From Desulfocapsaceae bacterium (lineage in GTDB: Bacteria; Desulfobacterota; Desulfobulbia; Desulfobulbales; Desulfocapsaceae): a DNA stretch of 64,000 nucleotides. Within the stretch, counting starts at the first letter, position 1, and each line of letters opens with the position of its first letter. Shown piece by piece: positions 63,086-64,000 of this stretch. The notes beneath the pieces are model-generated. The model worked only from the letters and a program-made list of their open reading frames with translations. It was not told where the DNA came from and made no database searches. Position numbers and translations under genes: made by a program. The DNA is taken from positions 1 to 64,000 of the forward strand of contig JAUSAB010000072.1 of NCBI GenBank assembly GCA_030653035.1, read 5' to 3'.

Positions 63086-63418
63086 ATGAAGATTGAATGG
63101 GCATATTTTCGTAAAGGGTGAGTGTCGTGCAACAAGGCCCGGGAGGCTCTTGAGCTGGTTGAGATTGTGGTTGAGGTTGATGCGAAAAAAGAGGCTTTAC
63201 AGGCAGAAGAGGTCTGGGACAGATTGCAGCGAGTCGAGAAGATCATTGTTGCTAAAGGGCAAAAGGTGCAGACATATGTCCCTGACCTGTCAGTTAAAGA
63301 TGATCTCATGCATGATGTTCTGGGCCGTACCGGCAACCTGCGTGCCCCCACAGTACAGGTGGGGAACACCTATTATGTGGGCTATAATGAAAACATATAT
63401 GAGGAGTTGATGACATGA
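63086..63418 (+). CDS. ArsC-family thioredoxin-fold protein, probable selenoprotein (UGA as Sec12)
   Basis: Read through the in-frame TGA at 63119-63121, the gene encodes 110 residues starting MKIEWAYFRKG-U-VSCNKAREA. The TGA falls exactly at the first position of the redox motif U-x-x-C, where ArsC/glutaredoxin-like relatives have Cys. The downstream frame continues for 98 sense codons with a cis-Pro-like GNLRAPTVQVGNTYYVGYN near the C-terminus. A SECIS-like hairpin follows the TGA. It overlaps the start of the rhodanese fusion gene (ATGA). An alternative GTG start at 63122 would lose the N-terminal beta strand and the motif. Confidence 0.8.
63133..63152 (+). promoter_or_regulatory. Candidate bacterial SECIS hairpin
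   Basis: Eleven bases after the UGA, CAAGGCC pairs with GGCUCUUG (one bulged C, one G-U pair) around the loop CGGGA. Distance and a G-rich apical loop fit bacterial SECIS elements recognised by SelB. Confidence 0.6.
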
Positions 63419-64000
63419 ACTGGAAAAGTCTGTTTACCCCTGGGGCCAATATGGGCCCGGAAGAGGCCAGGAAGTTTATCAATGGCCACCCCAGGGATTC
63501 CTATCAGATTCTTGATGTGCGGCAACCCAAGGAATATGAGCAAGGTCATCTTGCCGGCGCCCTGCTCATGCCGGTAAAAGAAGTGGCAACTAGGCTTGCT
63601 GAGTTGGACCGGAATAAACCCCTGTTAGTTTACTGCCATTCAGGTGTGCGCAGCAAGGCTGCCAGTCAATTATTGCTGGCCGAAGGATTCAAGGATGTAT
63701 ACAACATGAGCGGTGGGATCGTCGCCTGGGCGGGTGAAAAAGTCAGTGGTGGGGAGTTGCTGGGTGTGGAGTTTTTTATAGACCGTGAATTTCCGGATGT
63801 CTTTCAGATGGCCCATGCCATGGAAGAGGGGCTGCGGCAGCTCTACCTTGGCCTTATGGACAGGGTTACCAATAAAGAAACTCAAAAGTTTCTGGAGCGT
63901 TTAGCCCACTTTGAAGAGGGGCATAAGGAAATGCTGATGGCCATGTTTTCCCCGGATGATTTTAGTGGTAATGACGAGACCGGAATCGTGGAGGGAGGTC
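63415..64000 (+). CDS. Rhodanese fused to a ferritin-like (rubrerythrin-type) domain, partial
   Basis: Runs off the window. Residues about 10-105 are a rhodanese domain with ILDVRQPKEYEQGH and the active-site loop VYCHSGVR (C74). From about residue 115 the protein is helical, with MAHAMEEGLRQLYLGLMDRV and HFEEGHKEMLMAMF (an E-x-x-H of a diiron helix bundle). The ATG at 63415 overlaps the preceding selenoprotein-like gene by four bases. Sulfur transfer coupled to a diiron or peroxide-sensing site is inferred; the second half of the ferritin-like domain is outside the window. Confidence 0.85.
   Translation, partial: MNWKSLFTPGANMGPEEARKFINGHPRDSYQILDVRQPKEYEQGHLAGALLMPVKEVATRLAELDRNKPLLVYCHSGVRSKAASQLLLAEGFKDVYNMSGGIVAWAGEKVSGGELLGVEFFIDREFPDVFQMAHAMEEGLRQLYLGLMDRVTNKETQKFLERLAHFEEGHKEMLMAMFSPDDFSGNDETGIVEGG

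Follow-up and report, generated by a model that had tools for sequence, protein, structure and literature searches.

An ArsC-like selenoprotein was reported from Desulfotalea psychrophila in 2006 (PMC1794560), and the GOS survey listed an 'Arsenate reductase 2' (cd03032, UxxC) represented by 42 sequences with selenocysteine (Sec) and 238 with cysteine (PMC2398784). A 2026 review includes an 'Arsenate reductase-like protein, NF041106, UxxC', citing the 2008 GOS survey for NF041106, and separately describes rhodanese-like selenoproteins of form 1 (UxxS) and forms 2 and 4 (UxxG) (PMC13188914). No assigned substrate for the NF041106 family was found in the literature that we searched.

Here we analyze a gene in a 64,000-nucleotide stretch of a Desulfocapsaceae contig (the window). 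Its product is very probably a genuine selenoprotein of the NF041106 family, of Desulfocapsaceae type within the Desulfobulbales, and likely a small reductase or redoxin. At UGA 63119, SelB and tRNA-Sec would insert Sec with help from a hairpin just downstream. Newly described is an ATGA overlap with a rhodanese-rubrerythrin gene that is kept in three related genera.

Reading frame and translation start

The frame opens with ATG at 63086, passes through an internal TGA at 63119–63121 and closes at the next in-frame stop, TGA 63416–63418 (Table 1), giving the read-through product MKIEWAYFRKG-U-VSCNKAREAL...GRTGNLRAPTVQVGNTYYVGYNENIYEELMT. These coordinates agree exactly with the initial annotation, which had described a frame open on either side of the TGA and a U-x-x-C motif formed by it (here UVSC). 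It had also anticipated that automated calling would begin at a downstream GTG and lose the active site, and under translation table 11 the only ORF is the GTG-started one at 63122–63418 (98 aa). Standard ORF calling therefore truncates this gene and cuts off its active site, while the present analysis confirms the gene.

In the alignment of 76 loci, the R9 and G11 codons hardly change at their first two bases but vary at the wobble base, and wobble positions −10, −7, −4 and −1 each show all four bases. Because the codons preceding the TGA are constrained in this way at bases 1 and 2 but free at base 3, translation must begin upstream of the TGA. In an alignment of 39 proteins, W5, R9, the Sec column, S14, C15, G80, G83 and the run L85-R86-A87-P88 are invariant; judged from the fold, R86-A87-P88 would take the cis-proline loop position.

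Table 1. Coordinates of the selenoprotein gene, its overlapping neighbor and their functional sites in the window
Feature	Position	Strand	Evidence
ArsC-related selenoprotein gene, 110 aa, NF041106 member	63086..63418	+	NCBIfam score; present in 76/93 genomes of the host's taxonomic family
TGA, Sec codon, residue 12, first position of UxxC	63119..63121	+	TGA in 79 and TGC in 1 of the best 80 of at least 574 relatives; selA, selB, selD and tRNA-Sec in genome
TGC, putative resolving Cys15 of UxxC	63128..63130	+	C in 76/78 loci, S in 2
SECIS-like hairpin, loop CGGGA 63140–63144, 18 nt after UGA	63133..63152	+	Fits bacterial SECIS rules; pairing preserved among relatives; this single sequence folds no better than shuffles
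R86-A87-P88 in conserved NLRAPT segment, predicted cis-proline loop position of thioredoxin folds	63341..63349	+	No variation at L85, R86, A87 or P88 across 39 sequences
Rhodanese-rubrerythrin fusion gene, 270 aa	63415..64000 (ends beyond the window, at contig position 64227)	+	Pfam PF00581 and PF02915; start overlaps selenoprotein stop
TGC for the rhodanese-domain catalytic residue Cys74 (loop YCHSGVR); sister species carry TGA	63634..63636	+	All mapped TGAs in relatives but one fall on this codon
Linked partner copies with TGA at the catalytic codon			L018, L019, L024–L027, L029, L031, L034, L038

Selenocysteine codon and decoding machinery

The initial annotation held that homologues should carry Cys or Sec at the TGA position and that the genome should encode selA, selB, selC and selD; both expectations are borne out. 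Copies of the gene occur in 76 of the 93 genomes of the host's taxonomic family, each with exactly one internal TGA, and all 28 matches above the cut-off in a set of 395 genomes from across the phylum likewise contain one TGA. A scan across GTDB yielded at least 574 loci encoding relatives, and the codon state was taken from the best 80, of which 79 have TGA and one (locus L115) has TGC, a natural Cys counterpart of the kind that the initial annotation had called for. A family confined to Desulfobacterota was ruled out, as records from Poribacteria, Calditrichota, SAR324 and Anaerolineales were also recovered, all with Sec. Two loci (L062 and L090) have UxxS in place of UxxC, a motif without the resolving Cys. 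In another lineage of the phylum, two distant relatives below the cut-off (L095 and L096) carry the motifs WSRUTTC or WQKUTTC and possibly belong to a separate ArsC/Spx-like selenoprotein group.

The 3.41-Mb genome (99.99% complete) encodes selA (619.7 bits; cut-off 268), selB (384.9 bits; cut-off 242), selD (376.7 bits; locus L010, C90:21938–22879) and a tRNA-Sec with anticodon UCA. SelD itself looks like a selenoprotein in this genome, because its gene has an in-frame TGA near the N-terminus (...VKAAG-U-AAKLGPG...). Two loci on contigs C35 and C55 scored above the Rfam threshold for tRNA-Sec (L013:1501–1594, minus strand, and L014:1501–1599, plus strand) and share the anticodon loop CUUCAAA (UCA); the second is divergent and was not called by ARAGORN.

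A SECIS-like hairpin downstream of the UGA

Published rules for bacterial SECIS (bSECIS) elements specify a loop of 3–9 nt with G in the first two loop positions, a stem of 4–16 bp, a distance of 16–37 nt from the UGA and a folding energy of at most −7.5 kcal/mol (PMC13188914). The hairpin in the window conforms to all of these, with its CGGGA loop, 7 bp and one bulge, a distance of 18 nt and −8.7 kcal/mol (nt 10–42). Its stem (63133–63139 with 63145–63152) comprises seven pairs and one bulged U and begins 11 nt past the UGA. The initial annotation was right about this location. Taken by itself, the hairpin does not beat chance: the single sequence folds at −8.8 kcal/mol compared with a dinucleotide-shuffle mean of −11.4 (z = +1.2), which is thermodynamically unremarkable. 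With z positive against these shuffles, we dropped the folding of a single sequence as proof of a SECIS element.

Comparison among relatives was more informative. Counted from the T of the TGA, columns 19–29, 20–28 and 21–27 pair in 76, 62 and 70 of the 76 loci, respectively, and the 21–27 pair shows some two-sided change (C-G, U-G and A-U). Each of the 76 loci is more stably folded than the average for synonymous-codon shuffles (mean z = −1.4). Of 119 distinct natural sequences, 90 conform to the SECIS rules, against 45 out of 120 synonymous-codon shuffles. It is conservation, not folding, that excludes chance. Two alternative hairpins are possible, and the sequence probably contains a SECIS element, although its exact form is unsettled.

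Family assignment and predicted fold

With C substituted for U, the product scores 111.2 bits against the NCBIfam model NF041106 (ArsC_rel_Se_1, 'ArsC family (seleno)protein'; curated cut-off 85) over profile positions 1–107 of 107, and its N-terminal redox motif carries Sec with a Cys three residues on. A Pfam scan of the product gave only sub-threshold matches to glutaredoxin and ArsC; because the ArsC match (PF03960) reaches 13 bits against a cut-off of 24, a Pfam-only scan would miss the family. A search with PF03960 found no further ArsC-family genes in the host's own genome. The NF041106 match, together with PMC13188914, PMC2398784 and PMC1794560, places the protein in a kind that is already known, as the initial annotation had recognized.

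An AlphaFold2 prediction based on the alignment of 39 relatives (pLDDT 95, pTM 0.88) confidently models the product as a one-domain Spx/ArsC-type thioredoxin fold. The best solved structural relatives are Spx proteins (3ihq, Z 8.3, rmsd 2.8 over 86 residues; 6ghb, Z 7.8; 3gfk, Z 7.7), followed by YffB (1rw1, Z 7.6) and then ArsC-related proteins (ArsC 1sd8, Z 6.2), and Foldseek returned an E value of 6e-4. Spx also ranked first in a profile search (E = 1.8e-5), and Sec12 and Cys15 occupy the positions of the two Spx CxxC cysteines. The ArsC-like fold proposed from the first reading therefore holds, as a Spx/ArsC/YffB-type thioredoxin fold predicted by the model and by profile and structure comparison.

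Overlap with a rhodanese-rubrerythrin gene

The stop codon of the selenoprotein gene overlaps the start of a rhodanese-rubrerythrin gene (PF00581, 77 bits; PF02915, 41.6 bits) in the sequence ATGA at 63415–63418. An identical overlap occurs at 28 of 51 loci from the host's taxonomic family, spread over three related genera; two members of the host's own genus lack it. Outside the taxonomic family, linkage to the rhodanese-rubrerythrin gene was absent from all 25 loci examined. We found no constant neighbor across the wider NF041106 family; downstream genes vary and include, by eye, OTCase, an oppositely oriented AhpC/TSA peroxiredoxin, biotin carboxylase, an NFACT-like protein and others.

In sister species, the partner gene has a TGA exactly at the codon for catalytic Cys74 in ten linked copies (YUHSGVR, YURSGVR or YURSGMR), while four others of that genus have Cys at that codon. 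A second, unlinked form of the fusion, represented by more distant copies from related genera (L180–L197) that were fetched for carrying a TGA, has TGA at the catalytic codon in these copies, mostly within the loop YUAxGGR; one further TGA, in L192, lies at the protein end. A tree of 48 rhodanese-rubrerythrin proteins requires at least four changes between Cys and Sec labels, compared with 16 for shuffled labels; strong branch support makes each of the four unavoidable. On inspection without a control, a foldable hairpin follows most of the partner TGA codons. Given the TGA at the catalytic codon in sister species, rhodanese-rubrerythrin is a candidate for a selenoprotein family in which Cys and Sec have repeatedly been exchanged; nothing relevant to such a selenoprotein appeared in the literature searched, though a description elsewhere is conceivable. 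The ArsC-like redoxin, for its part, keeps Sec in every linked locus examined, and the contrast with its partner is a natural setting for comparing what an enzyme gains from Sec. The initial annotation had located the novelty in the gene and its linkage; this is borne out for the linkage. It turned out more informative than could be seen from the window, since the partner has Cys in some relatives and Sec in others.

Alternative readings of the locus

Standard ORF calling yields the GTG ORF alone and the hairpin has no significance by itself, both of which would suit a decayed or truncated ArsC-like gene in which the TGA is a true stop and translation restarts at GTG 63122. More than 100 distinct homologues, however, have the same single TGA, with protein conserved on both sides and no further in-frame stop, and upstream of the TGA the residues W5, Y7, R9 and G11 are conserved while their wobble bases are free. 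Such conservation has in practice refuted gene decay, and we consider its probability negligible. Alternatively, the UGA might be translated by read-through or given a meaning other than Sec, such as Trp or Cys by way of a suppressor, and the inserted residue cannot be read from the sequence alone. Yet the genome has complete Sec machinery including a tRNA-Sec with UCA, the sole non-TGA codon at the site is the Cys codon of L115 (within the best 80 of the relatives), and reading with table 11 leaves long window genes such as gyrA, gyrB and that for a sigma-54 regulator uninterrupted. Recoding to a residue other than Sec is accordingly very improbable, if marginally less so than gene decay, and insertion of Sec is the reading that we retain.

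Two further alternatives concern what a Sec-containing product would do. The family name and the fold held in common with ArsC (1sd8) could indicate a true arsenate reductase, but the product falls short of the Pfam ArsC cut-off, its closest structural and profile relatives are Spx rather than ArsC, its partner is a sulfurtransferase fusion, and no arsR, arsB or acr3-like gene was seen by eye in the reading frames on either side; we judge this role unlikely. The leading rank of Spx in both profile and fold comparisons, with UxxC at the Spx CxxC position, could alternatively point to a Sec version of that redox-sensing regulator, with UxxC as the switch and RNA polymerase alpha as the partner. 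Against this, the product scores 19.7 bits with the Spx model NF002459 (cut-off 123), identity is about 26%, and in several genera the gene shares an overlap with one for an enzyme, making a regulator slightly less likely still than an arsenate reductase. As both model scores lie well under their cut-offs, we place the protein in the superfamily as neither a shown arsenate reductase nor Spx.

Proposed function

By analogy with its fold and motif, the product is most likely a small reductase or redoxin acting in redox catalysis. Sec12 would attack and Cys15 would resolve the selenenylsulfide, in the manner of other UxxC redox proteins with this fold. It is probably a Sec-Cys redoxin that may serve the persulfide or peroxide chemistry of its partner. 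More tentatively, and with odds that we place somewhat against it, the co-translated rhodanese-rubrerythrin could itself be the substrate, with the redoxin reducing the persulfide or peroxide product at its active-site Cys or Sec; this weaker step follows from the overlap of the genes in three genera and from the selenol or thiol nature of both active sites. Counting against the partner as substrate, most members of the wider family lack it next door. Since the linkage is lineage-specific, being absent outside the taxonomic family and in two members of the same genus, the partner cannot be an obligatory substrate of the family.

A still more doubtful extension is that the two proteins form a dedicated redox unit in Desulfobulbales, present as a double-selenoprotein operon in sister species, in which the redoxin would reduce the partner and so couple persulfide handling to peroxide defense. 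If this were true, the natural Cys/Sec swaps in the partner would provide a test bed for the retention or loss of Sec. The conserved translational coupling to rhodanese-rubrerythrin in any case offers a concrete candidate substrate, and the main interest of the locus lies in this two-gene unit.

Comparison with known systems

Spx (3ihq, 1z3e and 6ghb) shares the fold and the CxxC position, but has Cys where the window protein has Sec, and the window protein is far under the Spx model cut-off and without sign of a regulator. The ArsC-like selenoprotein of D. psychrophila (PMC1794560) comes from a related class of organism, and the GOS 'Arsenate reductase 2' (PMC2398784) has the same motif and domain as the window protein; the same-family identity of these sequences rests on the citation of the GOS paper for NF041106 in PMC13188914. 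The sister-species partners resemble the rhodanese selenoproteins of PMC13188914, likewise having UHSG or URSG (UxxS) or UAxG (UxxG) at the rhodanese loop in a comparison made by motif, but the partner is fused to a rubrerythrin-like domain and its copy in the window has Cys. With respect to NF041106, the window product agrees in its full-length match above the cut-off, its single Sec and the place of its UxxC, and the protein itself shows no difference. It is therefore best read as a new but unexceptional member of an established selenoprotein family; its gene differs only in its lineage-specific neighbor.
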